From a virus, in the IMG/VR virus record IMGVR_UViG_3300023175_001185, positions 1-33,271 of that record: a stretch of DNA of 33,271 nt; one strand, 5' to 3'. The notes beneath the pieces are model-generated. The model was not told the DNA's origin, did not search any database, and saw nothing but the letters and a program-made list of their open reading frames with translations. Shown in pieces: positions 1,625-18,623 of the stretch. Numbering within the stretch: the stretch's first letter is position 1; each line of letters opens with the position of its first letter. The translations under genes and the position numbers were made by a program.

Positions 1625-1626
1625 AC

Positions 1627-2874: not shown

Positions 2875-2875
2875 T

Positions 2876-3409
2876 TTACATCCTCGACATTAAGCCTGTT
2901 GGTTTTTCTTCTTTTGGCATTTCTTCTGGCATTGCCTCAGACTCAGATGATCCCTCTAGTTCTTCAGCCACTTCTTCCACCACCTCAAAGCCACTGTCTT
3001 TCTGTTCTTCTGGTGTAGCTTTTAATGATTTACGAACCAACATAGCAGCCCTAGTTATAGGATCTTCTACGTCACCATTAAACTCTTCTTTGTACTTTAT
3101 ACCTGCTTCATCTGCAGCACTCTTTACAAAAGCATGTACAATAGGAAAAACAATTAAGCTTATATCAACGTTATGAATGCCTTGTCCAACAGCAGCAGTC
3201 ATCATTGTTTCAACAAGAATAGAAGAAGGTATGCCGTACTCCAAAGCAAAGAATACGTTGTCCATAACATCTACATCTGTCAATCTTTCAATATGATATT
3301 TGATAGCCTCATTGTAGTCTGTGATCTGAGGTGGTCTTTCCCAAGGATAGTTCTTTGGAGTATCTGTTAGAGATTGACCTGGAATAGGAGCCTTAAGGGA
3401 TGCAGTCAT
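2876..3409 (-). CDS. Conserved phage structural-type protein of unknown function
   Basis: This 177-residue protein opens with APIPGQSLTDTPKNYPWERP, an N-terminus I associate with conserved uncharacterised proteins of marine phages. Residues 30-115 look like a helical core, containing the hydrophobic run MMTAAVGQGIHNVDISLIVF. The C-terminal 50 residues are acidic, rich in Glu, Ser and Pro, and end in LMSRM, typical of a disordered tail. The start ATG overlaps the upstream stop by one base (TAATG), so the two genes are translationally coupled. Context among internal virion proteins suggests a virion or assembly role. The function is unknown. Confidence 0.7.
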   Translation of the reverse strand: MTASLKAPIPGQSLTDTPKNYPWERPPQITDYNEAIKYHIERLTDVDVMDNVFFALEYGIPSSILVETMMTAAVGQGIHNVDISLIVFPIVHAFVKSAADEAGIKYKEEFNGDVEDPITRAAMLVRKSLKATPEEQKDSGFEVVEEVAEELEGSSESEAMPEEMPKEEKPTGLMSRM

Positions 3410-4341
3410 TATAAAGTACCTCTAATTTCTCTTATTACTGCATTCTGTCTTTCCTCAGACAACTTTTTAAATCCTTCCCACTCTTTACCCATTTCTTCTC
3501 TGGCTTTTTTCAAGGAGTAATTAGGTTTAACTCTACGTTGTACAAGGTATACAGCAATTTTATCTTGTGTCTCTTCATTAAAGATAGTGTCTTCAGTAAT
3601 ACCTAATTCCTCTAACACACCTCTATCTCTTAGATCACGGAGGGTATTCCCAACAAACTGGTATTTACCTACAGCAGTTGTGTCATGTCCTAGTTCCAAG
3701 TTTCTTTTATGAAAGTCACCATTCAACTCAGTTAAATCATATATTGCAGACATAGGCATAGCAGTAATTTCCATGCCAAGGAATTTACCATCTACACTCT
3801 CTGCATTAGCAAACATACTATCATAAGACTTAGCTTCAGTGTCAGATATAGCAGATCTAAACTCAGAACCTGCTAGGATAAAGGCAGGTAGCCCTTGCCT
3901 TGATGCTCTGTTCTGATCTGTAGCCTCTACTCTTTCTGTTTGAGCATTTGTATTAGTAAGATTTGGTCTTGAAGAGGTGGGATCAAAGGGTGCATCTGAA
4001 TCAATGTCTTGTGAATTGTACCAATCTAAACTTGGTGTCTCACTATCACTTGGTTCCCTAGCACCAACAATAAAACTAGAAAGCCTAGCCATTAGCTTTT
4101 CATTTTCTTCTTCAGCTTCAGCTTTACTTTGTTTTCTTAAGTTATCAAAAGAACGTTTAACACCATACGATGCATCACTCATAGCAGCCTTTGTCTTTGA
4201 GGCTTGCCCTCTTGCAGACATCAAACTTTCTCTTGTAGAAGAACTTGATTTACCAGTTGGATCACCAAGGATAGCTTCTGCCAGTGAGTTCATTTGTCTT
4301 TCTAGTTTTTTTCTTTGTCTTGCTGAAAGTTCTTCTGCCAT
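3409..4341 (-). CDS. Virion-associated lysozyme-like (transglycosylase) protein
   Basis: The protein has 310 residues from the ATG at 4339-4341, one base after the upstream stop. A longer reading from 4365 would need a TTG start inside the previous gene and is less likely. The N-terminal 150 residues are charged and low in complexity. The C-terminal half reads SDTEAKSYDSMFAN, then HDTTAVGKYQFVGNTLRDL, then EETQDKIAVYLVQRR. This resembles the lambda R-type muramidase/transglycosylase family, where a catalytic Glu is followed by an (S/T)AxGxYQF signature. The expected role is local opening of peptidoglycan during DNA entry. The Glu in SDTEA is the candidate catalytic residue by position only. 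An endolysin role is possible but less likely given the place in the virion-protein run. Confidence 0.65.
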   Translation of the reverse strand: MAEELSARQRKKLERQMNSLAEAILGDPTGKSSSSTRESLMSARGQASKTKAAMSDASYGVKRSFDNLRKQSKAEAEEENEKLMARLSSFIVGAREPSDSETPSLDWYNSQDIDSDAPFDPTSSRPNLTNTNAQTERVEATDQNRASRQGLPAFILAGSEFRSAISDTEAKSYDSMFANAESVDGKFLGMEITAMPMSAIYDLTELNGDFHKRNLELGHDTTAVGKYQFVGNTLRDLRDRGVLEELGITEDTIFNEETQDKIAVYLVQRRVKPNYSLKKAREEMGKEWEGFKKLSEERQNAVIREIRGTL

Positions 4342-4342
4342 A

Positions 4343-7300
4343 TTAAGTCCATCCTGCGATACCAACTAGTATCTCTTTAATAAAGTCACCTGTGTTTGCT
4401 TCTGCTTCAAGGTCAGCCTGTAACTCTGCAGCATCCTTTTGAGCTTGTGCAGCAATCTTTTGAAGGACAACCTCATTAGCTCTGTTAGCATTATTTTCTG
4501 AGACTTGGAAAGCCATAGATAAAAGATCTCTTTCACGTTGCCAAATCTCGTCAAGGTTAGTTGCTGTTAGCTCATTCATAGTTTGTGCAAACTGCATATT
4601 ACTTTCATTCTGAGCAGCAGTGTTCATAGTGGCAATGTTCTGTCTCCACTGAGCATTAGCTTGTGCAATAACAAGACCATTTTGTGCATTAAACATCGTT
4701 CTTTGATTTTGCATCTCAGCATTAAATTGTCTTAAAGCATTCACGTTATTCACGTTGAATTGATCCATAGCATTAGCTTGGGATGCATTGAACTGAGATG
4801 CCTGTGCAGAAAGTGAAGCAAAGAATTGATTAGTCTGATTCTCGCTTGTTGCATTAAACTGTGCAGCAGCATTTTCTGCGGCCTGATCTGTAAACAAAGC
4901 TTGTAGGTTCTGCTGTGACTTAAACATTTCAGTTTGTTGAGCATTGTTTAAGTTAGTCATATCCATCTGTAGGAAGCTTTGTGCATTCTGCACTGCAGCC
5001 TGTTGACGGTTATTCAAGTTAGCCATGTCAAGGTTAGCTAATGCTGCAGCCTCTGCCATAACCATAGCTTGCTTATTAGAAAGGTTGTTAAGCTCCATAG
5101 TATTTGCAGCACGAGAATTTTCTAAAGCAATGTTTTGCTCTGCAGTAAAGTTCATGTTGGCAATATCACCAATACGTGCAGAGTTTTGTACACGAGCTTG
5201 GAACTCTTGATCAAACTCTTGCCCTAAGAAGGTAGCACGTTGCTGTGCTGCAAGCATTGCACGTTGTTGTCTATTACTTAGGTTCTGTGCTTCAAAGCTT
5301 GCTCGAGTAGCTGCATCAGCTTGGGCTATTGGTAGTGCAGATTCCATAGCTGCTTGGATTACAGCCTGTCCTGCCATTGAAGAAGCACTCAGTCCTCTAG
5401 CAGCTAGTGTAGCCATTGCAGTTCTCATTGAACCTGCAGCCCAAGGAGGTGTTTCTCCACCTTCAAACTGTTGCATAAGACCTTCTAGTTGTCCTGCAAC
5501 AGTAGCTTGTTTACTTGGTGTTGCTGTAGCAGCCTCAATCTGTTCAGTAAACTTAGCAGCTTTTTCAGCATTAGCTGCACCAGATATAAGCTCACCTTCT
5601 TGGATCTCCCTCTGTACTGGGTTCTCCATCATGATAGCTTGCCCTTGAGCAGCTTCCATTCCAGTTACTGAGCTAGTCTCTTGCTGTTGTGCAGTTACCT
5701 GTGCCTCTTCAGAAACTACACCTTGTTGTGCTTGTAGCTTATCAGTTTCTGCTTGAACTTCAGGAGTAACAGTTGATGTAGTTACTGTACTTGCCCCTGT
5801 CTGTGTTGGCATTTGAGCTTGTGTTACCGTACCAACAGTTGCAGCTTCTGCCATAGAAGCTTGAGCAGGAGCTTGCCCTGCATCTGTACTTATCATGTCA
5901 GCTTCATCTGGGGTTACCTGTGCTACTGCTGACTGTCGAGGACCAGTCATGGTTTCAGTAACAACATTCTTCTGCATTTCTTTAAACTCTTCAGGACCAA
6001 TAGTTGAAGCAAGGTTGTCAACATCAGTCCCTGTCTGTGCTCCCATTCTCACTGACGACATATTTCTTAAAGCATCTGTAAGACTACCAAGCTTTGCAGC
6101 TAGGGCAGGGTTAGCCGACATTTGTTTTTTAAGATCTGATGAATTACCTTGAAAGTTCATCACTCTTTGAGCAATCTTAAGATAAATATCTTCACTTGAT
6201 TTATTTGGGTCAGACTCTAAGCCACCTTTTTCATAACCATTCATAAGTCCACCTCTTGCCACAGCAGTGTAACCTGGTGGAACATAAGTTATAGGATTTC
6301 CTGAAGCATCTACCGTTGCCTGAATCTTTTGACCAAACTGGTTTTGATAAGTTTTTATACCACCAAAGCCACCTTGAGATTGACTAGTCAAGTTAGACAT
6401 AGTTGTTCCAGTGTAGTTGGGTTTTACTGTTATTTGGTTTGGTACTGCTGAAATACCAGAAGTTTGTAGAGGAGTACTAACTGTTCCTGTTGTGCTTGGT
6501 TGTATAACACCAGTAGTTCCAGTAGTTCCAGTAGAGGTTGTATCCATAGTCACGGCCTGTGGGACATCTTCATAAGTTGGTTTTGTAGTATCTGTGCCAA
6601 CATCCCCGACAGCTTCATCAACAGTCTCAACGTCTGGAGATGTAATAGTTTGACCAGTCTCTGTATCATCAATAGTTTCTGTTGTTGTTGCAGTAGTACC
6701 AGTGTCTGTGGAGTCTATTGTTTGAGCAGTAGATACTTTTGGCTGTGGTGTTGAAATACCAGATACAAACTCCATATCCCAAAAATCATTGTAGTCTTCC
6801 CAGGGAGAATAAGAATTTGCTATAGTGTTGAATGTGTTGAAGTAAGTATTTCTTAAGTCTGAATTAAGGTATATGTCTCCTGACATAGCTTCTTTAACTG
6901 GGTCAATCCAAGAGGAATCTCTAACACCAAAACTTTTCAAAGTACCTATAGTAGAGTCTGAATTATTAAGATCCAAACTTCTTAGTATAGTCCCATTTGC
7001 TGCTGTTACATAAGCAAAAGAAGGTTGATTAGGATCATCACTGACCTTATAAGAAACACTTGTCCCACCATACATCTTGGAGGTGGCTATATTTGCTGCT
7101 GCCTCAAGACGATTGGGATCATATTTAAAATCAAAAGTGTCTACATTAGGACCACCTGTTGAAACTTTTGCTGCTTCAAAGATAGCATTCCAGTTTCTAG
7201 TATCTGTATTTGATCCAACAACACCATACAGAAGTTCACTTGCTTTTTTAGTTATTTGGGAGTAATCCTCCCCAGATGAATAAAGCTCTTCTACTGTTTT

Positions 7301-7684
7301 ACCTGAAAGAGCTTCCATCATCTCTCTCATGTTTGGTTTACGTGGGTTGTTTACGTCATAACCATAGTCAGGATCTACCCAATCGGGTATTCCGTTCGTA
7401 GTAGTGCTTGTAGTAGCTGTACTGCCTTTTCTAGCTTCAAAAGCATTAGCTAAAAGACGAGCATCATTAGCTGCACTCAAAGGATTACGTACAGTAGTAT
7501 TGGCAGTAGTACCATCAGACCATGTAATAGTCCAGTTACCTGACCCCCCAGATATGGTATAGTTATCTGGGTCAGCAGGAATATTACCTTCAGATGCAAC
7601 TCTATCGAGGTCATCCTGAATATAAGAAGGTAGATTACCTTTCTCATCATAGAACTTTTCATCACCTTCTGGTATAATAGCCAT
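4343..7684 (-). CDS. Large Asn/Gln/Ala-rich internal or tail protein
   Basis: This 1113-residue protein begins MAIIPEGDEKFYDEKG, with an AAGG-type site about 10 nt upstream. The first 300 residues look globular (NYTISGGSGNWTITW is beta-like). A Thr/Gly/Ser-rich disordered linker follows (TSTGTTGTTG region). From about residue 600 the sequence is almost wholly Ala, Gln, Asn, Met and Phe in recurring short helical units such as NLNNRQQAAVQNAQSF and QFNASQANAMDQFN. The last residues, DFIKEILVGIAGWT, are apolar. Long amphipathic Gln/Asn-rich helices are typical of phage ejection proteins that form trans-envelope channels. It directly follows hldD and opens the second block of virion genes. No enzymatic domain was recognised; the ejection role is inferred. 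Confidence 0.7.
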   Translation of the reverse strand: MAIIPEGDEKFYDEKGNLPSYIQDDLDRVASEGNIPADPDNYTISGGSGNWTITWSDGTTANTTVRNPLSAANDARLLANAFEARKGSTATTSTTTNGIPDWVDPDYGYDVNNPRKPNMREMMEALSGKTVEELYSSGEDYSQITKKASELLYGVVGSNTDTRNWNAIFEAAKVSTGGPNVDTFDFKYDPNRLEAAANIATSKMYGGTSVSYKVSDDPNQPSFAYVTAANGTILRSLDLNNSDSTIGTLKSFGVRDSSWIDPVKEAMSGDIYLNSDLRNTYFNTFNTIANSYSPWEDYNDFWDMEFVSGISTPQPKVSTAQTIDSTDTGTTATTTETIDDTETGQTITSPDVETVDEAVGDVGTDTTKPTYEDVPQAVTMDTTSTGTTGTTGVIQPSTTGTVSTPLQTSGISAVPNQITVKPNYTGTTMSNLTSQSQGGFGGIKTYQNQFGQKIQATVDASGNPITYVPPGYTAVARGGLMNGYEKGGLESDPNKSSEDIYLKIAQRVMNFQGNSSDLKKQMSANPALAAKLGSLTDALRNMSSVRMGAQTGTDVDNLASTIGPEEFKEMQKNVVTETMTGPRQSAVAQVTPDEADMISTDAGQAPAQASMAEAATVGTVTQAQMPTQTGASTVTTSTVTPEVQAETDKLQAQQGVVSEEAQVTAQQQETSSVTGMEAAQGQAIMMENPVQREIQEGELISGAANAEKAAKFTEQIEAATATPSKQATVAGQLEGLMQQFEGGETPPWAAGSMRTAMATLAARGLSASSMAGQAVIQAAMESALPIAQADAATRASFEAQNLSNRQQRAMLAAQQRATFLGQEFDQEFQARVQNSARIGDIANMNFTAEQNIALENSRAANTMELNNLSNKQAMVMAEAAALANLDMANLNNRQQAAVQNAQSFLQMDMTNLNNAQQTEMFKSQQNLQALFTDQAAENAAAQFNATSENQTNQFFASLSAQASQFNASQANAMDQFNVNNVNALRQFNAEMQNQRTMFNAQNGLVIAQANAQWRQNIATMNTAAQNESNMQFAQTMNELTATNLDEIWQRERDLLSMAFQVSENNANRANEVVLQKIAAQAQKDAAELQADLEAEANTGDFIKEILVGIAGWT

Positions 7685-7695
7685 AATACTTTACC

Positions 7696-8466
7696 TTAAA
7701 CTGAAAGAGTGTCCCAAAGCTTTGTTGTGTCTGCTTTAGTAAACTCTTGGTAATTACCTTTTAAATTTTCTGGGAAATCAATAAACTCTATAGTTGCACC
7801 AGTCTTATCAGAAATCTCTAGGGCTACATCGTAGAAGCTACGAGCTTTACCTGTACCAACATTCCAAACACCTGACTCATCTATACTCAAGAATTTCTGG
7901 TGGTAGTCTACAACTTCGTCTACATGGATAAAATCTCTGAAGTACTTAGGAGACCCTTTGAAGATCTTTATCTTACCACTCGTCTTAGCTTGTTCCATAA
8001 ACTTGGTGAAGGGACTTGCTTGATTTCCTTTGTGTTCTTCTTGTGGTCCGTAGACGTTAAAATATCTAAATATGTGTGTAGTAATAGGAGCATTTCTCAA
8101 CTCTACGTATCTCTCAAACATAGCTTTGCTACGTGCGTAATGGTTCTGAGGATTAAGAGGAGAAGTCTCCTTAAAGTCTGACTTCAATCCGTACACAGAG
8201 GCACTAGAAGCAAATTGAAACTTAACATCGTTATTAATACATTCTTCGTATAACTTAATAGTGAACTCTAGGTTCTGTCTATATATCTTTGAGATGTTTG
8301 TTTCTGTGGTGGAGCTAATAGCCCCTAGGTGTATAACCCAGTCTAGATTCTTAATTGAGGGGAACGACATCCCCCATTCGTTCTTAATAATTTCATGTTC
8401 ATCCTGTAGTTTATTGATAAGATTTTTGCCGATAAAACCATTGCTACCTGTAACTAAGATTTTCAT
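7696..8466 (-). CDS. hldD: ADP-L-glycero-D-manno-heptose 6-epimerase (HldD)
   Basis: This 256-residue short-chain dehydrogenase/epimerase would convert ADP-D-glycero-D-manno-heptose to ADP-L-glycero-D-manno-heptose in the cytoplasm. Residues 7-13, GSNGFIG, are the NAD(P)-binding glycine motif. Residues 46-57, HLGAISSTTETN, match the HldD signature HLGAxSSTTE. The catalytic set is SSAS (87-90), Tyr110 and Lys114 (YARSK). FRYFNVYGP (133-141), HKG (145-147) and the C-terminal GNYQEFTKAD also match HldD rather than generic epimerases. E. coli HldD has about 310 residues, so this is a compact form. It overlaps the cupin gene by 4 nt (ATGA) and ends the sugar cassette. Identity as HldD is strong; whether the L,D or D,D sugar is used downstream is unknown. 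Confidence 0.9.
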   Translation of the reverse strand: MKILVTGSNGFIGKNLINKLQDEHEIIKNEWGMSFPSIKNLDWVIHLGAISSTTETNISKIYRQNLEFTIKLYEECINNDVKFQFASSASVYGLKSDFKETSPLNPQNHYARSKAMFERYVELRNAPITTHIFRYFNVYGPQEEHKGNQASPFTKFMEQAKTSGKIKIFKGSPKYFRDFIHVDEVVDYHQKFLSIDESGVWNVGTGKARSFYDVALEISDKTGATIEFIDFPENLKGNYQEFTKADTTKLWDTLSV

Positions 8467-8819
8467 TCTTGACTGTCTCCCTTTCCGACACGATAGTTAT
8501 CTTCAACGGAATCAGGAGTAGAAACTTCTACAAGTGTACCTTCCTCTAAACAAAATATTTGATGAGGAACTAGAGGTGGGTTATGCCATGTGTCTCCCTC
8601 GTTTAACTCTTCAACGTGTAATGTTGCATCTTCAGTATCAATCCAGTGTACTTCAAACTTACCAGATAGGACGTACCATGTTTCATCTTTCTCTTTGTGG
8701 AAGTGCATAGAAAACTTACCACCAAAGTGAAATTGTAAGAACTTACCACAATACTTGTCGTTGGTTGCCCAGATTAGCTCAGACCCCCAACCTTTCTTAA
8801 CGAAGCCTTCAAGTCTCAT
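8463..8819 (-). CDS. Single-domain cupin, sugar-pathway associated
   Basis: This 118-residue protein carries a full cupin motif 1 at about residues 33-55: Gly, five residues, His-x-His, four residues, Glu, six residues, Gly (HFHKEKDETWYVLSG). Motif 2 is GDTWHNPPLVPHQ. The metal ligands (two His, Glu, third His) are therefore present. Single cupins of this type are found among mannose-6-phosphate isomerase type II and sugar-nucleotide isomerase proteins. It overlaps hldA by 11 nt upstream and hldD by 4 nt downstream, so it is made together with the heptose enzymes. It could act on a heptose intermediate or product. The pathway lacks a GmhA isomerase in this window, and a stand-in role is possible but untested. 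Confidence 0.8.
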   Translation of the reverse strand: MRLEGFVKKGWGSELIWATNDKYCGKFLQFHFGGKFSMHFHKEKDETWYVLSGKFEVHWIDTEDATLHVEELNEGDTWHNPPLVPHQIFCLEEGTLVEVSTPDSVEDNYRVGKGDSQE

Positions 8820-9564
8820 TTACTACCTCATCTAGTGTAGGTGCATACACACCTCTGTGTTGTACAGTTACTGCTGCTGCATCCATTGCAAACTTAATAG
8901 CAGCATCCATATCATACGATTCCAAGTACTTAAAAACAAGTCCTGCTAGGAACGTATCTCCTGCACCACACACATCATGAGTTTCTACACTAGGGGGTAG
9001 GTAAGTTCTGTTTTTGTACTCGACTTTCTTTGAGCCGTATGTGACGATCAGATCGTCTGTTAGTGTTTCTGCTGCTTCAAACTCGTACTGGTTTATCTTT
9101 ACGAAGCAGCCATCAAACTGAGCTAGGTTAGTCTTCTTAGTATCTACAAAGATAGGGCCGTTATACTTAGCTCTAAAATCTTTTATGTCACCTTCTGCTA
9201 CAAATCCTTTGTTGTAGTCTGAGATGACAACAGCATCATACATACTTAAGTTTTCGTCTGCTGTATCTATGTGCTCTGTCTTAATCTTTTCATCTACTCT
9301 GATCAGTTGCTGACCAGTCTTGTCATCAACGTATCTGTGTTTACGTTCTCTGTACTCTGTTATGATGTCTACCCTAGTTCCTAGATTAACTAGGTTATTG
9401 TAGACGTTATATGCCATACCTCTTTTGATTACAGTTGAGGTAAGATCAAAGACAGGTACAGGTGCCTCTGGGCTTATTCTGGTTACAGTTCCTGTGTGAT
9501 ACTCATCATAGCAACTGTCTCCTAGTAATAAAATCTTCGATTGCTTTTGTGGTAGACTGCCCAT
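8809..9564 (-). CDS. hldA: D-glycero-beta-D-manno-heptose-7-phosphate kinase (HldE kinase domain, stand-alone)
   Basis: This 251-residue PfkB/ribokinase-family protein corresponds to the N-terminal half of HldE, which phosphorylates heptose-7-phosphate at C1. Residues 15-22, GDSCYDEY, and RISPEAPVPVFD (29-40) match the HldE hallmark (GDxxxDxY, SRISPEAPVPV). SDYNKG (115-120) and DTKK (141-144) follow. GAGDTF (200-205) supplies the catalytic Asp203 and anion hole. The usual HldE kinase domain is about 310-320 residues, so it is shortened, and the common GGAANVA segment is replaced by RGMAYNVYNN. The start ATG lies 59 nt inside hldC. The domains that are fused kinase-first in HldE are here two genes in swapped order. 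Confidence 0.85.
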   Translation of the reverse strand: MGSLPQKQSKILLLGDSCYDEYHTGTVTRISPEAPVPVFDLTSTVIKRGMAYNVYNNLVNLGTRVDIITEYRERKHRYVDDKTGQQLIRVDEKIKTEHIDTADENLSMYDAVVISDYNKGFVAEGDIKDFRAKYNGPIFVDTKKTNLAQFDGCFVKINQYEFEAAETLTDDLIVTYGSKKVEYKNRTYLPPSVETHDVCGAGDTFLAGLVFKYLESYDMDAAIKFAMDAAAVTVQHRGVYAPTLDEVVNET

Positions 9565-9916
9565 TGGTTCTCTCGTAGAATACTATTTCTTTACAGTACT
9601 CCTCCCCAAGTATTGTCTTCCCCTTCCAATCAGATCCTTTTACCATTACGTCTGGTTCATACTGCCTTATGATGTCAACTAGCTCTTGGTCTGTATCAAA
9701 TACTCTGACACTATTGACAGGCTTTAACATAGACATTATATGTTTACGTATTGACAAAGGATTAAAAGGTCTTCCAATACCCTTGTTATACTCAATACGT
9801 GCGTCTGTGTCAATAGCTACGAGCAAATGACCACCTAACATCCCTGCAAAATCAAGGAGATCAAGGTGTCCAGAGTGCAGAACATCAAAAGCACCGTTAA
9901 CGAAAACTTTCTTCAT
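9506..9916 (-). CDS. hldC: D-glycero-beta-D-manno-heptose-1-phosphate adenylyltransferase (HldE C-domain, stand-alone)
   Basis: This 136-residue cytidylyltransferase-family protein matches the C-terminal half of HldE, which makes ADP-heptose from heptose-1-phosphate and ATP. The nucleotide-binding motif HSGH is at residues 14-17 (VNGAFDVLHSGH). GRPFNPLSIR, the lysine motif in DVMVKGSDWKG and the C-terminal GQSTTKAIEDF are all typical of this subfamily. It starts at the ATG at 9914-9916, only 14 bp from the divergent gmhB start, and overlaps hldA by 59 nt. Because gmhB lies between it and the upstream minus-strand genes, its transcript must either read through antisense to gmhB from the 13.2-kb promoter or start locally. 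No convincing local promoter was found. Confidence 0.87.
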   Translation of the reverse strand: MKKVFVNGAFDVLHSGHLDLLDFAGMLGGHLLVAIDTDARIEYNKGIGRPFNPLSIRKHIMSMLKPVNSVRVFDTDQELVDIIRQYEPDVMVKGSDWKGKTILGEEYCKEIVFYERTNGQSTTKAIEDFITRRQLL

Positions 9917-9930
9917 AGGTAATATCCACT

Positions 9931-10578
9931 ATGTCTCGATTCAAACACATAATAGAACAAGACCCACAACAAGTTCAACAACAAAACCTACCCCCTGATT
10001 GGCCTACTGTGTTTCCTAAGTCTATTGTTGGTCTAGATCGTGATGGTGTTATCAACATAGATAAAGGACACTACCTAACTGATCCTGATGACTGGGAGCC
10101 TATCCCTGGATCACTGGAAGCTATTCGTTTGATTAGATTAAAAGGCTACAAAGTAGTAATTCTAACTAACCAAGGTGGTATTACTAAAAAAGAGCAGACA
10201 CATGCACAGGTAGAAGCCATTCATCAACGTATGATGGAAGTCTTTGGCAATGCAGGTATCTACTCCATTGATGGTTTATTCTATTCTGAGTCTTCATTAA
10301 AAGAGGACTACTATGCTAAACCTAACATTGGTATGTTTCATCGTGCTGAAAAAGAAGTATTCAATAACAAAATTAGATTTAAAGACAAAGGGTTCTACGT
10401 AGGTGATAAGGTGACAGATCTTAAAGCTGCGGAACGTATTGGTGCTACCCCAATCTTAGTACGTACTGGTCATGGGGTAGCTACTGAAAAAGATCTTCAA
10501 AAGTTCTCTAAGGAGAAACTAAGAAAAAAGACTAAGGTGTTTGAGAATCTTCTTCAGTTTGCTCAGAAGCTACCATAA
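9931..10578 (+). CDS. gmhB: D-glycero-beta-D-manno-heptose-1,7-bisphosphate 7-phosphatase (GmhB-like)
   Basis: This 215-residue HAD-superfamily phosphatase would remove the C7 phosphate between the kinase and adenylyltransferase steps. Motif I is GLDRDGVIN with Asp36 and Asp38. Motif II is LTNQGGI (78-84). Motif III is KPNIGMF (Lys130). Motif IV is YVGDKVTDLKAA with Asp159 and Asp163. An extra 30-residue Gln/Pro-rich N-terminus precedes the domain. Most GmhB proteins have a zinc-binding Cys/His loop before motif III; here that stretch reads FYSESSLKEDYYAKPN and the protein has no cysteine at all. It is the only plus-strand gene. It diverges from hldC by 14 bp and its last 47 bp overlap the 3' end of the convergent carbamoyltransferase gene. 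Related histidinol-phosphatase activity cannot be excluded from motifs alone. Confidence 0.85.
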   Translation: MSRFKHIIEQDPQQVQQQNLPPDWPTVFPKSIVGLDRDGVINIDKGHYLTDPDDWEPIPGSLEAIRLIRLKGYKVVILTNQGGITKKEQTHAQVEAIHQRMMEVFGNAGIYSIDGLFYSESSLKEDYYAKPNIGMFHRAEKEVFNNKIRFKDKGFYVGDKVTDLKAAERIGATPILVRTGHGVATEKDLQKFSKEKLRKKTKVFENLLQFAQKLP

Positions 10579-12241
10579 CAAGCTTACCTACTTCTGGTAG
10601 GTACATATACTTGATATCACAGTTCTCCATTGTGTGCAGAGCATCTTCTAGTGTCTCTACAAGTGGTTCACCTGCTAGGTTGAAGCTTGTATTAAACAGG
10701 ATTGGTACACCAGTGATCTTACGGAACTCTTCAATCAGATCGTAATAGGCTTCGTTCTGCTCTCTGGTTACCGTCTGGATACGACATGTACCATCTACGT
10801 GCGTGATAGCAGGACATTCACCATGCTTGTCAGACTTAAAGTCCATTGCATACATCATGAATGGTGACTCTTCCATTCCGTATGTTTCAAACCATTCCTC
10901 AAAATATTCCTTGAGCATTGATCCTGCAAAGGGTCTGAACCATTCACGTCCTTTTACTTTGTTGACAACATCCTTGCCTTGTGGGTCTGTGGGATCATAA
11001 AGTATAGAACGATTACCTAGTGCTCTTGGACCTGCTTCTGATCTACCTTGAAAAATAGTAACAATGTTTTTCTCAGAGATAAGCTTTGCTACATCAGCAG
11101 GAGTAACATCCTTTGTGTCGTAGTTTTCTAGAAGGTCATAATTTTCTTTACGTTCTGGACCTAAGTAAAGTGTTGTTAGTGGACGTTTTAGTTTACTTTC
11201 GTATTCTTTGTTCCAGAAGTATATTCCAGTACCTATAGTAGTACCACCATCATGGGAGACAGGATCAACATAGATATTAAGATCAGGAAAACGTTTCTTG
11301 TAGTAATAGTTAGCTACACAGTTTAGACCATAGCCCCCTGCAATAACAATGTTTTTCTTGCCTGTCATATCTACGGCTTTTTCAATAAGGTCACCTGCTA
11401 GTTCTTGTGTTTCCTGTTGAACAGACCAGGCTAGATTCATAGCCTCTTCTGTAACTTTACTAGGATCAGTGTGCCAAGCTTTAGGGTCTTCTTTAAGTCT
11501 AAGCTTTTCAATTCTGTTATAATCAATATGAGCACCTGCAGGGTAATTAGGTATCAGCATATTTCTGTTAGCCTTCCCATCTACAAAAAGATTAGGTATT
11601 GAGTCATCCTTTTGACCGTATGGGGCAAGACCCATTGTTTTACCTGCTTCAATAAAAGTAAAACCTAAGTATTCAGATACAGCTTCGTAGGCTTTAACAA
11701 GAGTTACGGAACTATCCATATATATACTATCAGACGCAGCTAAGAATGTATCTGGATTACCTCCATAGACAGTGTACTTTCTAGTAAAACCATCATCCCA
11801 ACAACAATCAAAAATAGTTTCAGTTTCAAAACCGTAATTTGTTACTTCGTCAGATACTTTTATTCCTCTTCTTGATCCTGCACCATCAATAATAACAGCA
11901 GCAGCTTTACTAAAACCAGAGTTCACAAAAGCAGAACAGGCATGAGCAAAGTGGTGATCTGCACCAATGTTAATAGTTTTTAACTTAGGGTTAAACTTTC
12001 TTAGGAAAGCAGTATAAGGATCTTCACCAGTCCAAGCAAGTCTAGGTAGTTCTTCAGATGTTCCTGTTATAACAAGAATATCTACCCCATATTGTAATGC
12101 TTCAACCATACCTCTGTATGGGTTTCCATCATACTTATATCTAGATAAACGTTCCTCTTCTATATAAAACTTAAGCTTATCGTGCTGCCAAAAAGCAGCA
12201 GATCCATTATGTCCTGGATTAATCACTAAGATATTAGACAT
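10532..12241 (-). CDS. O-carbamoyltransferase, NodU/CmcH/TobZ family
   Basis: This 569-residue enzyme has the two-domain build of the family, which transfers a carbamoyl group from carbamoyl phosphate, through carbamoyl-adenylate, to a hydroxyl group. The Kae1-like N-terminal domain shows GHNGSAA (10-16), EEERLSR (28-34), the metal-binding histidines in ADHHFAHACSAF (His96/97, His100) and IDGAGSR with Asp119. The YrdC-like C-terminal domain shows QGRSEAGPRALGNRSILYDP and FNTSFN. Length is normal for the family. It starts 1 nt after the GT9-like gene stop and lies in the heptose cassette, so the likely acceptor is the heptose or the glycan or protein carrying it; the acceptor is inferred. Its 3' end overlaps gmhB by 47 bp, tail to tail. 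Confidence 0.9.
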   Translation of the reverse strand: MSNILVINPGHNGSAAFWQHDKLKFYIEEERLSRYKYDGNPYRGMVEALQYGVDILVITGTSEELPRLAWTGEDPYTAFLRKFNPKLKTINIGADHHFAHACSAFVNSGFSKAAAVIIDGAGSRRGIKVSDEVTNYGFETETIFDCCWDDGFTRKYTVYGGNPDTFLAASDSIYMDSSVTLVKAYEAVSEYLGFTFIEAGKTMGLAPYGQKDDSIPNLFVDGKANRNMLIPNYPAGAHIDYNRIEKLRLKEDPKAWHTDPSKVTEEAMNLAWSVQQETQELAGDLIEKAVDMTGKKNIVIAGGYGLNCVANYYYKKRFPDLNIYVDPVSHDGGTTIGTGIYFWNKEYESKLKRPLTTLYLGPERKENYDLLENYDTKDVTPADVAKLISEKNIVTIFQGRSEAGPRALGNRSILYDPTDPQGKDVVNKVKGREWFRPFAGSMLKEYFEEWFETYGMEESPFMMYAMDFKSDKHGECPAITHVDGTCRIQTVTREQNEAYYDLIEEFRKITGVPILFNTSFNLAGEPLVETLEDALHTMENCDIKYMYLPEVGKLVMVASEQTEEDSQTP

Positions 12242-12242
12242 T

Positions 12243-13175
12243 TTATTTCACCTTCTTTTCTATGTCTTTCAAGATATTTGAATATATATCATTTATTTCT
12301 TCATCTGTAAATTCAACAGTAGCTTCATTTACTCTATCAGCTAAGTTTCCTTCAAGTTGAGAAAGACGTATAGGTGAATATTTTTTAGGAACATCCTTTT
12401 CAATAATATTAAAGTAATCAGGATAAGAGGTATTTATAGCAAAGGTGGAACCAAGTATAACAGTACCAGGAGTATTCACAGCCCTTGCCATGTGTTGCCC
12501 AACAGAGTCACAACCAATGAAGTAATCTGCTGCGTCAATAAAAGCTGTCCACATACGAAGGTCAGCCTCAGGTTTCATGGTAAAGGTATCTTCAGGAAGC
12601 CAAAAGTTTCTTTCAGCAAATAAGACTAAGTTAAATTTAGCTGAAAGTTTTTTAACTAACTTAAGATAAACATCAGGGTTTATAGAACGTGATGATGCAT
12701 CAAGAGTAACGTTTTCCTGTGGTCTTTCGATTGATCTACCAAAGGGTTGTATAACGATTGTTTTTTGCTTTTTTTGTTGTTGTTTAACTTCCTGCATAAA
12801 CTTAGCAGCGTTAAACTCTTCTGGCCTACTTGTTTTTAATACAGGATTTTCAAGGTCAGAGTGATCATCCGTGTTATTAATTAGATAATCAAAAGCTTCT
12901 GCAAGAGACTTTTCTTGTTTGTAGTACCCAGGTACTCTATAAGGCTCTGGAGATATTACTCTGTCTGCATCCAACAGAAACTGTTCAAAAGAACCTTTTT
13001 GCTCTGGGTTAAAAACGTGGTCTTGTAGTTCTGGTATTCCCCAGAAAATAGTGTCCCACCCATAAACCAAAACTCTAAAATTTTCTTTAGGGTTGGTTCT
13101 TTTAAACTTTAGTAAGGCAGGGATAGCTGCTATAGCCCTTCCTGCCCCACCATCAATCATAAAAACAGTAGTCAT
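12243..13175 (-). CDS. GT9-like (ADP-heptose) glycosyltransferase
   Basis: This 310-residue protein looks like a GT-B fold glycosyltransferase of the GT9 (LPS heptosyltransferase) type. The N-terminal MIDGGAGRAIAAIPALLKFK parallels the family's first Rossmann segment, which usually ends in G-D-x-(I/L)-x-x-x-P. The C-terminal donor-site region, AADYFIGCDSVGQHMARA then GTVILGST, parallels the family's xxD(S/T)GxxHxAxA motif. It is the first gene after the promoter at 13227-13255 and is followed immediately by the carbamoyltransferase. GT9 enzymes add heptose to LPS core or, in the AAH/TibC group, to repeat-rich autotransporter proteins. ADP-heptose as donor is supported by the neighbouring genes; the acceptor (LPS, fibre or other) is not known. 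Confidence 0.75.
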   Translation of the reverse strand: MTTVFMIDGGAGRAIAAIPALLKFKRTNPKENFRVLVYGWDTIFWGIPELQDHVFNPEQKGSFEQFLLDADRVISPEPYRVPGYYKQEKSLAEAFDYLINNTDDHSDLENPVLKTSRPEEFNAAKFMQEVKQQQKKQKTIVIQPFGRSIERPQENVTLDASSRSINPDVYLKLVKKLSAKFNLVLFAERNFWLPEDTFTMKPEADLRMWTAFIDAADYFIGCDSVGQHMARAVNTPGTVILGSTFAINTSYPDYFNIIEKDVPKKYSPIRLSQLEGNLADRVNEATVEFTDEEINDIYSNILKDIEKKVK

Positions 13176-13264: not shown

Positions 13265-14659
13265 TTAAGTTGATTTAATACCATAAATTCTAATTTTTGT
13301 ATCACAGTCAATAGTAGGATAATCACATGAATTCGCATATGTTGGTATATTACAAGCAGGTGAAACAAAGACATGACCAGTTAGACCAGTTGGATAACAC
13401 CAATTACCAGTTGTGTAAGGTGTATCTGATAGGTAAGAAACTTCAGTTGTTCCTTTAATCATTGAATCAAAATCAATGAAAGCGTGTTTACAACTACAGT
13501 TTAGCCACCACCAGAATCTTTTTCCGTCATCTGTTGCACGGAACATTGTTGTATCACCAAAATCAGGACCTGCACAAAGGAACCATTCTTGTGTCATATT
13601 GCTGTTAGCAATAGCCAGACATCTATAATAGTGTCCGTAAACCATCCACTCTTCACAGTAACATGACCAGAATACACCTACTTTTGCACCGCTGAGGTTG
13701 CCCATAATAGTGCAAAAACATTGAATTGCACTTAGTGATGACTGACTACCACACCAGATACACCAACTACAAATTGAACTAGGATTGCCACTACAAACGC
13801 AACAAGTATTAAAACGATATAACGACATATTTCCGTTTACTTGATCCCATTCGATAGCGGCTCTACAAGCACAGCATCCACGACAGCCCACCATAGATAT
13901 ACCATTTTTACCGTATGTACTACGACCTGATCCATTAAAGTTACAAACACATATGAAGCATTCTAGGTCTGCAAAGGTACAAGCTCTCCAGTTGTGTACT
14001 TTTGAACAACCAGGCATTGATGTTACAGCCATATCTGGTGCAATAGCAGTAGTACAGTAGTTAGTATAACAACTATAACATAAAGTATATGTAGTACAAT
14101 TTGATTGTTTATAGAAAACATAAAAATTTGAAACAGAGTTACCATCATAATGATGGGCAGCATACGCATTAGCAAAACCTGGATCGTAGTGTGCAGTACC
14201 ACAGTACCAACAGTTATCACAACATATGCCGCTTAGACACATACAGCCACAACAACCACAGCATTTACAGTGTGTTCCTGCAGCGTTACCCACCATTAAA
14301 GCGCAGCAAAATAAGTAACTTTCAGTATGGTTTGCACTTCCCCCTACTTGCGCTTTTACAACACCAAACGTCATAGGGTAATTACCAGATGTCTCTTTAT
14401 AACAAAGTGTAGTAGAGGGAGGGACAATTAAGTTACCTGTGAGCGAAGCAGAAAGATCACTCCCAACTTTAACACCATCCATATAAAGGTCACCCTTGTA
14501 GCACTTATTGGCTAAGTCAGCTGCTTCATCTTGTTTATATATATCTCGAATAACGTAGCTTGTACTTGCGTCAGTCGTAAGGAGACAAACTATACCGTCA
14601 CCATTAAAAGACATATTACAAATATTTGCACAGGCTATTCTACAAAATTGATCTGCCAT
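13265..14659 (-). CDS. Extremely cysteine-rich protein downstream of the fibre (probable virion/fibre component)
   Basis: The protein has 464 residues, of which I count about 50 cysteines (nearly 11%), with many CC, CxC and CxxC pairs; THCKCCGCCGCMCLSGICCD is one cluster. GAGGA lies 9 nt before the ATG and the fibre gene stops 16 nt upstream, so it is co-transcribed with the fibre. The N-terminus contains ADLANKCYKGDLYMDG, echoing the fibre's DLTNKCYVDG, which suggests a related build. The rest is rich in Tyr, Trp, Asn and Gly, as in beta-structured receptor-binding tips. Cysteines in alternating positions (ECFICVCNF, TCCVCSG, SCYCEEW) would line one face of beta-strands. There is no signal peptide. 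It may be a disulfide- or metal-stiffened fibre tip or adhesin; the fold is not recognised. Confidence 0.75.
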   Translation of the reverse strand: MADQFCRIACANICNMSFNGDGIVCLLTTDASTSYVIRDIYKQDEAADLANKCYKGDLYMDGVKVGSDLSASLTGNLIVPPSTTLCYKETSGNYPMTFGVVKAQVGGSANHTESYLFCCALMVGNAAGTHCKCCGCCGCMCLSGICCDNCWYCGTAHYDPGFANAYAAHHYDGNSVSNFYVFYKQSNCTTYTLCYSCYTNYCTTAIAPDMAVTSMPGCSKVHNWRACTFADLECFICVCNFNGSGRSTYGKNGISMVGCRGCCACRAAIEWDQVNGNMSLYRFNTCCVCSGNPSSICSWCIWCGSQSSLSAIQCFCTIMGNLSGAKVGVFWSCYCEEWMVYGHYYRCLAIANSNMTQEWFLCAGPDFGDTTMFRATDDGKRFWWWLNCSCKHAFIDFDSMIKGTTEVSYLSDTPYTTGNWCYPTGLTGHVFVSPACNIPTYANSCDYPTIDCDTKIRIYGIKST

Positions 14660-14675
14660 GATTTATTTTCCTCGT

Positions 14676-17600
14676 TTAGCTTAAAGCATTTCCATATGCC
14701 ATAGCAGTAGCAATGGAGTACCCTGCTATATTAGTTAGTCCTGCCCCATCTCCTTTGAAGCATGTTGCACAAACTGCTGTTGTTGCACAAAGTACTGGTG
14801 CTTTCACACAAGAGGATGCACAGTGATTTCCATGAGTATAAGACCCATAAGAAGCTGTTTGGAGTTTTACTGCTCCATTGTGATATAGGCAAGCATCTCC
14901 GTTACAACCTGCGTTGAACATCCACTCGTTGGTAATATCGTTATAGATACCTACCTCAGTACCCTGTGACATAAATACGTACTGGTTATTAATTGAGTAT
15001 CCTGTCCAACCATTGTCACCACCAACAATGGAGATAGAACCATAATCACCTGCTGAGTTACAGATACATCTGCCACCTACTGCAAGCCAACTTTCACCAC
15101 AAATTACTGGTGCTTTCACACAACTTGTACCACATGTTACAGGAGCACAGATATTTCCTGAAAAGTTCTGACCTGTGTTGGAGGCTTTACCTGCAAGGCA
15201 TGTTGCTAGTCCATCAACGTTAGCTACTGTGTGGTTATGGCTGTCATCTTGAACAGCTACTGATAGGTTTACGTTACCAGAACCATCAATCGAAGCAGAA
15301 CCTAAAGCATCTCCACAGATACAAAGTGTTCTAGCTGTTTGCCAAGCACTTGCTGTTGCTGCATTACCTGTTGTAGATCCTGAAGATCCAGTTACGTTAC
15401 CTGTAACATTACCTGTCACGTTACCAGTGACGTTACCAGTAAGGTTACCTGTTACATCTCCTGTGACAGGAGCACATACTCTAGCAAAGGTTACTGTGTC
15501 ACCTGTACCTACTGCCTGTCCAATGGCAACATTGTTAGCATTTACTGTAACACCTGTTCCTGCACCAACATTAAAGGTTGTACCATCTAGTGTCAAGCCT
15601 GAACCTGCATCGTATACAGCAGTCTCAGCTATAACAGTAAAGCTAATGTTAGTAGTACCAAATGTAATTGTACCTGATGTGTTCATCACGTACAGTTCAC
15701 CTGCACCTGTGTCACCTTCTTTTACGAAGAATGCGTCACCTTCACCTAGTGCATTCTGATCTGAAGCACCATAGCTGTCAGCATCTGTAGCACGAGTAAG
15801 AACCCAGTTAGTCGAAGCTGAACCAGTGTTGGTTACTGTGTAGACACCATTCTCGTAACCATTTGTTTGGCTATAGATAAGGACACGATCATTGGTGTTT
15901 AGTGTTACACCATCAATAACTAAGGCAGCTTGTGTTCCTGCATTGGTAAGTGTAGCACCTACACCAGATGAACCATTGTCATAAGTAGCATTCAAACTAC
16001 CTGCACTATCTGGTGATTCAACACGTACTGGATCATGGTAGTGAATACCTGCAGCAGCAATCGTATCAACGTACTCTTTTGTTGCAAGTTGGCAAGCCTG
16101 GGTAGGATTACCTGTTACACATACTGATCCAAAACAAACGTTGTCTGATGTACCAACAGACTGTCCAATAGAAATGTTACCAGTTGTGTAAGTAACACCT
16201 GTACCACCTGTTAGGTGACTATCAACTCTAGCTGTTGTGAAGTACTGATTTGTACCTTCTGCTAGATCATCTGTGTCATGATTAGAAAGAGAGGAGACAG
16301 TACCAGTTACATCACCTGTCAGGTTACCTGTAAAAGTACCATATAGGTTTGTAGCACAAACACTTGATACGTTGTAGATACACTCAGAGTCACCATCTAG
16401 AGGGCCACCTAGCTGTGGTGTAGTATCTTCTGCAATTTGAGTAAGAGCATCACCAAGTGTAAATGCTGCAGAAGACCAGATAGATCCTGTGTAAACTTTA
16501 AGAGCATTATCTGTAGTATTCCAGTATAATGCACCAGTTAATAGAGCATCACCATCGTTGTCTACTGATGGGTCTGATGATTTATTGCCAAGGTATCTGT
16601 CGTCAAAGCTATCATAAGATGCAGCAGCATTTGTTTCTGAGGTTGCAGCAGCAGTAGCTGAGTTACTTGCATTAGTCTCTGAAGTAGCTGAAGCAGTTTG
16701 ACTTGCTAGTGCACATGCAGCAGAAGTACAGGCTGCAGTAGCTGATTGTAAGATACCATCTACATAACACTTATTTGTGAGGTCACATGCATTGGCAGGT
16801 GTGTAGCAAGAAATAATAGGACAAGTAGTTTCTACATTTCCTGTGAATGTACCACCTGACAAAGGCATTGCTGTGGCAACACAAGTGTCTGTGTAGTTTT
16901 TAGTACTTGCATCTTGAGCAGCAGTTGGATCACCTAGACCTGTAATCTTAGATGTACCCATTGCAATGGCACCAGACATTGTGCCACCAGTCAAGCTCAG
17001 TTTAAGAGCATCCTGAGTATCTACGTAACCCTTACGAGTCAATGTATCATCTGTAGCAGGTGTGGCTGTAGATGTGGCTTTATTAGCACCAAGGGTAATA
17101 TCCCCTGACATAGTGCCACCTGCACATGCTAGTTTTGTACCTAAACAAGTTGTAAGAGATGTGTAGAAGTCTGCATCATTGTTGATAGCATCAGCTAGTT
17201 CACTCAGAGTATCAAGAGCACCAGGAGCACCACCAATCAGGTTACTGATTTGTTGGTCCACATAACACTTAGTGCTTGCATCTCCATCAAGGGTTGGTGT
17301 TCCAAGAGAGGTAATCTTAGCAGAACCCATATCAAGTCCTGCAGTACCTGTCATGTTAATATCACAGAAAGAAGAGGTACCTGTTGATGTTACATCACCA
17401 GTTAAGTCACCTGTTACGTTTCCTGTAACATTACCTGTGACATTACCAGTCAGATCACCAGTAACATCTCCTGTCACATTTCCTGTAACGTTACCTGTTA
17501 GATTTCCTGTGACATCTCCTGTAACGTCACCAGTGATATTACCTGTGACGTTGCCAGTTACGTTACCTGCTACATTACCTGTGATGTCACCCACAAAGCA

Positions 17601-18623
17601 GGTATTGGCTGTAACTGTTGTACCTGTTATAGCACCTGGTGTAGCACCACCAATAGTAGTACCATCAACAGTACCCCCATTGATATCGACTGTAGCAAAA
17701 GTACCCTGTCCTGTCGTACTAAGTGTAGTAAAGCTACCTGCAACAGGAGTAGTGGCACCAATAACAGTATTGTCAATATTACCTGCATTAATATCTACTG
17801 TACTAAGAGTTGATGTTCCTGTGGCTTTTAGGTTAGGTGCACAGACTGTATCAGAGAAAGTAGAAACACCTGTTACTCCAAGAGTACCAGATAAGGTTGT
17901 ATTACCTGTTACACCAAGTGTACCACCAACAGTTGCGTTACTAGATGCATCCATTGTGGTAAAGTCAGCAGCAGCAGGAGTCGTAGCACCAATAGTAGTA
18001 CCATCAATAGTACCACCATTAATGTCTGCTGTGTCAGCTACAAGGCTGTCAATGTTTGCTGTACCATCAATGTATAGGTCTTGCCACTCTGAAGTAGAAG
18101 AACCTAGGTCATATGTGCCATCTGCAGAAGGGATAAGATCTGAGGCAACATCAGCATTTACTGTAACAGTATCACTATCGTCACTACCAAGAGTAGTATT
18201 CCCATTAACGGTAAGGTTACCCGTAATAGTAGCATTTTCATGCACCGCAAGAGTGTCAATATAACCCACACCATCAATGTAAAGATCTTTAAACTCAGCA
18301 CTCGCAGAACCCAGATCAATATCTTCATCAGTGACAGGAACAATAGCTCCATCTTGTATCCTTATCTGTTCTACTGCAGCACTGCCAACATTTGTAAAGA
18401 AGTTGATCCTGTTATTGGCAGTATCAATTACTACTTTAGTAAAGTTGTTTGTGTCTGAGATCGTTGGGATATAAGCACCTTCAGCAGAAGATCCATCGTG
18501 CTTGTGTCCTGTTGCCTCATTAAAGGCTGCTAGTATCTGCTGAAATTCGTTGTTGACTGGTTCAGCTTTGATAACCTGACCAGAAACAATATCCGCAGCA
18601 CTCTGTCTTGTATAACCTGCCAT
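14676..18623 (-). CDS. Long tail fibre with GNVT repeats and many cysteines
   Basis: This 1315-residue protein begins MAGYTRQSAADIVSGQVIKA directly after the nozzle gene stop. The N-terminal 150 residues (including NEATGHKHDGSS and DLGSASAEFKDLYIDG) are typical of virion-attachment and repeat regions of marine phage fibres. The shaft has short beta-type repeats and two blocks of GN(V/L/I)T or GD(V/I/L)T tetrapeptides, 17 and 6 units. Fibre segments such as STKCYVDQQI, LTGGTMSGAIAMGTSKITGL and ATKEYVD recur between them. I count about 35 cysteines, all after roughly residue 255, often where related fibres have Ala, Thr or Ser. No S74 chaperone domain is seen at the C-terminus. It should bind the host surface, alone or with the Cys-rich protein that follows. 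Confidence 0.85.
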   Translation of the reverse strand: MAGYTRQSAADIVSGQVIKAEPVNNEFQQILAAFNEATGHKHDGSSAEGAYIPTISDTNNFTKVVIDTANNRINFFTNVGSAAVEQIRIQDGAIVPVTDEDIDLGSASAEFKDLYIDGVGYIDTLAVHENATITGNLTVNGNTTLGSDDSDTVTVNADVASDLIPSADGTYDLGSSTSEWQDLYIDGTANIDSLVADTADINGGTIDGTTIGATTPAAADFTTMDASSNATVGGTLGVTGNTTLSGTLGVTGVSTFSDTVCAPNLKATGTSTLSTVDINAGNIDNTVIGATTPVAGSFTTLSTTGQGTFATVDINGGTVDGTTIGGATPGAITGTTVTANTCFVGDITGNVAGNVTGNVTGNITGDVTGDVTGNLTGNVTGNVTGDVTGDLTGNVTGNVTGNVTGDLTGDVTSTGTSSFCDINMTGTAGLDMGSAKITSLGTPTLDGDASTKCYVDQQISNLIGGAPGALDTLSELADAINNDADFYTSLTTCLGTKLACAGGTMSGDITLGANKATSTATPATDDTLTRKGYVDTQDALKLSLTGGTMSGAIAMGTSKITGLGDPTAAQDASTKNYTDTCVATAMPLSGGTFTGNVETTCPIISCYTPANACDLTNKCYVDGILQSATAACTSAACALASQTASATSETNASNSATAAATSETNAAASYDSFDDRYLGNKSSDPSVDNDGDALLTGALYWNTTDNALKVYTGSIWSSAAFTLGDALTQIAEDTTPQLGGPLDGDSECIYNVSSVCATNLYGTFTGNLTGDVTGTVSSLSNHDTDDLAEGTNQYFTTARVDSHLTGGTGVTYTTGNISIGQSVGTSDNVCFGSVCVTGNPTQACQLATKEYVDTIAAAGIHYHDPVRVESPDSAGSLNATYDNGSSGVGATLTNAGTQAALVIDGVTLNTNDRVLIYSQTNGYENGVYTVTNTGSASTNWVLTRATDADSYGASDQNALGEGDAFFVKEGDTGAGELYVMNTSGTITFGTTNISFTVIAETAVYDAGSGLTLDGTTFNVGAGTGVTVNANNVAIGQAVGTGDTVTFARVCAPVTGDVTGNLTGNVTGNVTGNVTGNVTGSSGSTTGNAATASAWQTARTLCICGDALGSASIDGSGNVNLSVAVQDDSHNHTVANVDGLATCLAGKASNTGQNFSGNICAPVTCGTSCVKAPVICGESWLAVGGRCICNSAGDYGSISIVGGDNGWTGYSINNQYVFMSQGTEVGIYNDITNEWMFNAGCNGDACLYHNGAVKLQTASYGSYTHGNHCASSCVKAPVLCATTAVCATCFKGDGAGLTNIAGYSIATAMAYGNALS
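15390..15461 (-). repeat. 12-nt coding repeat block, 6 units (fibre)
   Basis: Six in-frame 12-nt units encode GDVT, GNLT and four GNVT. Synonymous codons vary between units, so the block has drifted while the protein repeat was kept. Confidence 0.9.
17388..17591 (-). repeat. 12-nt coding repeat block, 17 units (fibre)
   Basis: Exactly 204 nt encode 17 tetrapeptides of the form G-(N/D)-(V/I/L)-(T/A). Nine of them contain an N-x-T sequon. The order mixes GN and GD units irregularly, consistent with past unequal exchange. Confidence 0.9.

Follow-up and report, generated by a model that had tools for sequence, protein, structure and literature searches.

Cysteine-rich tail fibre proteins accompany a GT9-fold transferase of phage ADP-heptose cassettes and are its candidate acceptors

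Introduction

Sugars linked to the sulphur of cysteine are known from glycocins, in which SunS and its relatives, members of a different glycosyltransferase family from the one considered here, modify a small secreted peptide at one or two sites. Glycosyltransferase family 9 (GT9) comprises the heptosyltransferases WaaC and WaaF as well as TibC and AAH, which are encoded alongside their surface adhesins (TibA, AIDA-I). Heptosylation of adhesin serines by such bacterial autotransporter heptosyltransferases is known chemistry, and Asp110 of TibC is a candidate catalytic base as judged by superposition on WaaC and MurG (PMC4358343). Among phages, most genes of an ADP-heptose cassette are already annotated in T4-like cyanophages (P-SSM2, S-CAM3), and the cassette itself is not new.

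Here, we analyse IMG/VR virus record IMGVR_UViG_3300023175_001185 (positions 1 to 33,271, together referred to as the window), which derives from a marine HMO-2011-type podovirus and carries a seven-gene cassette for putative ADP-heptose synthesis, carbamoylation, and transfer at positions 7696-13175. We report that the GT9-fold transferase of this cassette is specifically coupled to cysteine-rich fibre proteins in several phage lineages. On balance, we lean towards interpreting the cassette as a self-modification module, with which the phage would make its own ADP-heptose and the transferase would place heptose or carbamoyl-heptose on the phage's own cysteine-rich fibre or adhesin proteins, most likely through sulphur.

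Results

The GT9-fold transferase, our candidate fibre heptosyltransferase, is a protein of 310 residues encoded on the minus strand (12243-13175). It is directly preceded by the gene of a cysteine-rich protein of 464 residues (13265-14659, minus strand) with 50 cysteines (10.8%), which is the candidate acceptor by co-occurrence with GT9, and this in turn by a tail fibre gene (14676-18623, minus strand; 1315 residues, 35 cysteines; PHROG tail fiber). The cysteine-rich neighbour had escaped the preliminary description of the window. In the same phage, the major capsid protein (MCP), the portal, w_1195, w_315, w_239, w_516, and w_1113 jointly hold 4 cysteines among some 4,500 residues. Over its N-terminal ~95 residues, the cysteine-rich protein matches a protein of roseophage CRP-113 whose gene directly follows that of the tail fibre; this phage lacks the cassette, and its counterpart has 2 cysteines in 444 residues.

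For a controlled comparison, HMO-2011-like contigs were gathered via the virion protein w_516, i.e., independently of the cassette, of which 27 had at least 5.5 kb of downstream sequence. The cysteine-rich protein was present in all 17 contigs with GT9 and the carbamoyltransferase and in none of the ten without (Fisher 1.2e-7), and dereplication to 11 versus 8 contigs left this association intact (Fisher 1.3e-5), although both values overstate independence because the compared contigs are kin. The enrichment extends to the tail fibre itself, whose orthologues (42-77% identity over 207-1152 aligned residues) contain on average 2.66% cysteine in GT9-bearing contigs versus no cysteine in the aligned region in contigs lacking GT9. 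MCP, portal, and other virion proteins are near 0% cysteine with or without GT9.

The coupling recurs outside this lineage. Of the cyanophage or marine loci with GT9, the first eight to be identified all encode cysteine-rich proteins just upstream, and the association is also seen in freshwater contigs. Among 50,697 phage records, 21 contain relatives of a cysteine-rich Gly_rich_2 protein from cyanophage S-SSM7, and every one of them is from a GT9-bearing cyanophage (in one single-cell genome among these records, the relative and GT9 are on two contigs). GT9 of the Vibrio N4-like phages SBP1, D505, and K479 immediately precedes a tail protein with a cysteine-rich part; distant relatives of this fibre in Vibrio phages D63 and 1.004.O, for which no GT9 match is listed, are cysteine-poor. 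GT9 of Aeromonas phage HJ05 directly follows a 559-residue protein with 23 cysteines. The surroundings of GT9 in these three Vibrio phages and HJ05 showed no Hld genes; Vibrio and Aeromonas hosts make ADP-heptose for their own lipopolysaccharide (LPS). In a broad scan for GT9, 56 loci had 5 kb or more of sequence upstream of this gene, and 52 of them contained a cysteine-rich stretch, defined as at least 6% cysteine.

Loci in which GT9, the carbamoyltransferase, and the Hld genes are separated show that cysteine-richness goes with GT9 and with neither of the others. Seven of eight GT9 loci without a carbamoyltransferase in the locus are still cysteine-rich. Conversely, no cysteine-rich protein was found in phages S-CAM8 and P-RSM4, which have a carbamoyltransferase beside fibre genes and no GT9, nor was one seen in the Hld-bearing, GT9-less phages S-T4, S-SM2, P-TIM68, and Sf-CH8. 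S-SM2 was covered over nearly its whole genome, and the proteins annotated there as fibres or appendages contain 1-7 cysteines in 554-2519 residues.

The cysteines vary in a manner that appears more compatible with numerous, interchangeable modification sites than with a fixed scaffold. In pairs of cysteine-rich proteins with 46% overall identity, 53% of cysteines are kept, little more than for the average residue, as compared to 69% of glycines, and cysteine is mostly replaced by S, N, T, A, or G. Some constraint is apparent in pairs at 50-70% identity, in which 80% of cysteines are kept versus 64% of all residues. Of 106 representatives, 54 have an even and 52 an odd number of cysteines. The proteins show a 1.4-1.6 fold enrichment of CC and CxC pairs and are also rich in serine and threonine (8.5% and 8.7%), and cysteine sites show only a mild excess of serine at the equivalent sites of low-cysteine homologues. 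A structure model of a cyanophage-type cysteine-rich protein (predicted local distance difference test, pLDDT, 54) was too poor to use.

Assignment of the transferase draws mainly on its predicted structure. NCBIfam matches were weak and restricted to RfaQ and heptosyltransferase III (3e-7, 6.5e-7). The AlphaFold model is of moderate confidence (pLDDT 70; predicted template modelling score 0.73), and in a Foldseek search nearly all of its strongest PDB matches were GT9 heptosyltransferases (3tov, TibC, WaaC, WaaF; E-values down to 1e-7), which indicates a heptosyltransferase-type GT-B fold for the modelled protein. In a MAFFT alignment, the column of the catalytic Asp13 of WaaC and WaaF is occupied by Arg13, and all 110 distinct homologues have arginine at this position. 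The DSVGQH motif (DSxGQH in the family) of the second domain aligns with DTGLSH of WaaC, and an hhalign comparison with E. coli WaaC aligned this C-lobe region alone. The transferase itself has a single cysteine in its 310 residues. Its family is almost confined to phages, with seven full-length matches in 84,980 bacterial and archaeal genomes, each with cysteine-rich open reading frames (ORFs) nearby. These matches, in 'archaeal', actinobacterial, flavobacterial, and other metagenome-assembled genomes (MAGs; our loci L214-L220), are mostly on short, phage-like contigs and likely represent binning contamination.

All seven cassette genes were found where the preliminary description had placed them, and its assignment to kinase, phosphatase, adenylyltransferase, epimerase, carbamoyltransferase, and GT9 families was borne out by searches of NCBIfam, Pfam, PHROGs, and the PDB and, for the GT9 fold, by the model. 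The HldD-type ADP-heptose 6-epimerase (7696-8466, minus strand; 256 residues; TIGR02197, 6.6e-69) scores 232.5 bits versus the NCBIfam cut-off of 274.6 and is shortened by about 31 residues after beta-strand 1; the catalytic YxxxK and the lysine of the HKG loop are kept in alignment to E. coli HldD (1eq2). The HldA-type PfkB kinase (8809-9564, minus strand; 251 residues; TIGR02198, 1.9e-35) keeps the GAGD motif and matches D-beta-D-heptose 7-phosphate kinase (PDB 4e84). The HldC-type adenylyltransferase (9506-9916, minus strand; 136 residues; TIGR02199, 2.4e-27) has glycerol-3-phosphate cytidylyltransferase as top PDB match. In NCBIfam, rfaE domains I and II match HldA and HldC best, both below cut-off. 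The reading frames of these two genes, as listed, share 59 bases (9506-9564). The GmhB-type HAD phosphatase (9931-10578, plus strand; 215 residues; PRK08942, 1.5e-38) matches D,D-heptose 1,7-bisphosphate phosphatase (PDB 4pnh) and keeps the HAD motif DRDGVIN, and with no cysteine at all it lacks the zinc-binding cysteine cluster. Its gene starts 14 bases from the HldC start and is convergent with that of the carbamoyltransferase, with an overlap at 10532-10578. The latter enzyme (10532-12241, minus strand; 569 residues; phrog_1601) belongs to the NodU/CmcH/TobZ family, with matches to Carbam_trans_C (7.8e-62) and Carbam_trans_N (2e-20) above the Pfam cut-offs and 7xb6 and TobZ as top PDB matches.

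No GmhA (SIS) isomerase was found among the cassette genes in the Pfam and NCBIfam searches. A candidate substitute for this step, judged by motif and gene context, is the cupin (8463-8819, minus strand; 118 residues; Cupin_2, 5.6e-9), which has the conserved HxH...E...H residues and whose profile matches include sugar isomerases, ranked behind oxalate decarboxylases. PHROGs labels this protein 'cysteine dioxygenase'; its motif and context appear no less compatible with a sugar isomerase. The cupin and the Hld genes remain together in HMO-like phages, in cyanophages, and in two further loci with variant cassettes (L069 and L081). The cupin also accompanies Hld genes in GT9-less phages (L004, L044-L046), in which no cysteine-rich fibre was seen, and a role in the pathway would therefore fit better than action on fibre cysteines.

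The cassette is not a chance assembly, because 31 viral contigs including the source phage share one gene order over the part that each contig covers; one of them, L036, lacks GmhB. L069 has all seven genes with one block reversed, and in L081 a HldE-type kinase-adenylyltransferase fusion replaces HldA and HldC. CRP-9 and other close relatives of the source phage have different genes at the cassette site, which marks the module as an insert next to the fibre that can be exchanged. In T4-like cyanophages, GT9, carbamoyltransferase, HldC, HldA, cupin, and HldD are encoded in closely similar order, without GmhB. The HMO-like and cyanophage lineages alike have a kinase, a phosphatase, an adenylyltransferase, an epimerase, and a cupin, and no GmhA. 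A protein annotated as 'phosphoheptose isomerase' in cyanophages (phrog_1238; P-SSM2, S-SSM7, S-CAM3; positions 12728-13072 of L003) was rejected as a supplier of GmhA activity, as it is a short HAD-like protein (MSKRYCIDIDGTI..., EcbF-BcbF family) and not a SIS protein; it is probably misnamed and likely a phosphatase. In 61 genomes of the family of one Rhodobacteraceae MAG, no HldD scored above the cut-off, and a phage of such hosts would therefore need its own supply.

Several cassettes carry additional genes. Those of Sf-FS3 and S-SSM7 (L041, L042) have inserted 2-oxoglutarate-Fe(II) oxygenases and second carbamoyltransferase-like genes, and that of S-SSM7 also has an inserted tryptophan halogenase; further modification by the products of these genes is possible. 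Downstream in GT9-carbamoyltransferase loci that lack the full Hld set (L107, L110, L101) are genes for a sulfotransferase, a Glycos_transf_1 glycosyltransferase, or a DegT aminotransferase, which suggests longer or different glycans.

A close relative of the source phage is Roseobacter phage CRP-9 (major head protein 98%, portal 89%, and terminase 90% identity), whose host is Rhodobacteraceae FZCC0023. Elsewhere in the window (20895-21768), overlapping ORFs for a ParB-like protein and a methyltransferase lie beside the major head protein gene.

Discussion

The observed coupling of GT9 to cysteine-rich fibre proteins, together with the gene content of the cassette, allows a pathway to be proposed. 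Sedoheptulose 7-phosphate of the host would be converted to heptose 7-phosphate by the cupin or a host enzyme, phosphorylated to heptose 1,7-bisphosphate by HldA, dephosphorylated to heptose 1-phosphate by GmhB, activated to ADP-heptose by HldC, and epimerized by HldD. The carbamoyltransferase could carbamoylate the heptose before or after its transfer. GT9 would then move the heptose onto fibre cysteines in the cytosol, yielding S-linked heptosyl-cysteine; as the host cytosol is reducing, the thiols would be free before lysis. We favour the S-linkage because GT9 has lost the aspartate base for hydroxyl acceptors and exchangeable cysteines abound in its partners. Given the much greater acidity of a thiol relative to a hydroxyl, transfer to sulphur could proceed without a base, and the arginine could even favour the thiolate. 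The resulting sugar coat would block disulphide scrambling and might shape or hide the receptor-binding surface. Whether the arginine-type phage GT9 constitutes a novel class of protein S-glycosyltransferase that attaches carbamoyl-heptose to dozens of cysteines in the phages' own tail fibres, across unrelated marine and freshwater phages, is in our estimation an evenly balanced question.

In the preliminary description, two acceptors had been put forward, the neighbouring fibre proteins, by analogy to TibC and AAH with their repeat-rich adhesins, and host LPS. A fibre acceptor is favoured also here, given the link between GT9 and fibre proteins across unrelated phages and the place of TibC in the top group of structural matches, but the striking feature of this acceptor is its cysteines and not repeats. 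The O-linkage to serine that the analogy implies is probably not transferable, because an arginine replaces the aspartate base of TibC and WaaC. If heptose or carbamoyl-heptose were nevertheless placed on serine or threonine of the fibre as by TibC, the cysteines would serve another purpose, e.g., interchain disulphides. We consider this rather unlikely, even though the chemistry has precedent, TibC ranks high among the fold matches, and serine and threonine abound in the cysteine-rich proteins. The invariance of the arginine at the position of the general base speaks against it, as does the finding that cysteine content is what separates GT9-bearing phages in the comparison of orthologous fibres. 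Cysteine turnover is also too free for intrachain disulphides, a constraint that contacts within trimers could relax. Alternatively, the cysteines might bind metal or harden the adhesin by disulphides, with the sugar genes linked to them merely through one exchanged host-recognition module. The enrichment of CC and CxC pairs and the existence of a cassette without cysteine-rich proteins (L036) are in line with such a role, yet it is hard to reconcile with the poor conservation of the cysteines, the lack of a bias towards even numbers in their counts, the gain of fibre cysteines only in GT9-bearing phages, and the recurrence of the coupling in otherwise unrelated phages, and we regard it as very improbable.

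Modification of host LPS with carbamoyl-heptose, which would mask the receptor and exclude superinfection, appears unlikely as well; the adjacency to the fibre would then reflect a locus for receptor recognition. The classical GT9 enzymes WaaC and WaaF act on the LPS core, and 7-O-carbamoyl heptose is known from the LPS core of Pseudomonas. In addition, cyanophages S-SM2 and P-TIM68 have their Hld genes among LPS-type glycosyltransferase genes. However, these phages as well as S-T4 and Sf-CH8, with the same arrangement, lack a GT9 of the cassette type, which makes the LPS acceptor of the preliminary description less likely, whereas the GT9 studied here is in the late virion block and tied to cysteine-rich fibre proteins in several lineages. 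LPS modification also gives no reason for the cysteine enrichment in orthologous fibres.

Several observations weigh against self-modification of the fibres through sulphur. One clear exception to the coupling is L036, which encodes GT9, carbamoyltransferase, HldC, HldA, cupin, and HldD (1360-12000) without GmhB and without a cysteine-rich protein in the available stretch; its fibre has 3 cysteines and the next ORFs have 1 and 0. Four GT9 loci with enough flanking sequence fall below the cysteine threshold, and no sequence motif was found around the cysteines of the cysteine-rich proteins, which could be disulphide-linked or metal-binding instead. The transferase had no match in Pfam or in a profile search of PDB sequences, its model is only moderately confident, and the ranking does not clearly place TibC before the LPS enzymes. 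That Arg13 corresponds to Asp13 is based on the MAFFT alignment and the secondary structure of the model. Finally, none of the Hld enzymes reaches its NCBIfam equivalog cut-off, and two of them, HldA and HldD, are shortened.

Proteins with 8-13% cysteine are highly unusual in virions that are otherwise almost cysteine-free, and their coupling to GT9 leads to a direct and testable hypothesis, namely that receptor-binding fibres are densely glycosylated through sulphur. If correct, this would add a linkage to protein glycosylation and give a function to the sugar genes of cyanophages, would bear on host recognition by abundant marine phages, and could provide an enzyme for labelling cysteines. 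In the part of the literature that was covered, we found no report on cysteine-rich or heptosylated phage fibres, and the main text of the HMO-2011 paper contains no heptose, carbamoyl, or glycosyl terms (PMC9038755).

Among described systems, TibC and AAH share with the phage cassette the GT9-type heptosyltransferase fold, the heptose donor predicted for the phage enzyme, and an adhesin encoded alongside as candidate protein acceptor. The phage GT9 differs from them by the absence of the N-terminal beta-barrel and the four-cysteine iron finger (PMC4358343), by an arginine in place of the catalytic aspartate, and by a candidate acceptor that is a cysteine-rich phage fibre; moreover, the phage brings its own putative ADP-heptose pathway and a carbamoyltransferase. 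WaaC and WaaF have the fold and the second-domain motif D-[ST]-x-x-x-H in common with the phage GT9, which is set apart by the change of Asp13 to arginine, its almost exclusive occurrence in phages, and its tie to fibre genes. Glycocins would resemble the phage system in their S-linked sugar if our interpretation is right, with dozens of sites in the phage case. Most similar are the clusters of cyanophages P-SSM2, S-CAM1, S-CAM3, and S-SSM7, which have a Nol-like carbamoyltransferase, adjoin tail fibres in nearly the same gene order, and encode cysteine-rich proteins, there of the Gly_rich_2 type, before GT9. They differ by a short HAD protein in place of GmhB, HldD on the opposite strand, and their occurrence in myoviruses of cyanobacterial hosts. 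The novelty of the locus is thus not the cassette but the coupling to cysteine-rich fibres and the arginine-type GT9.

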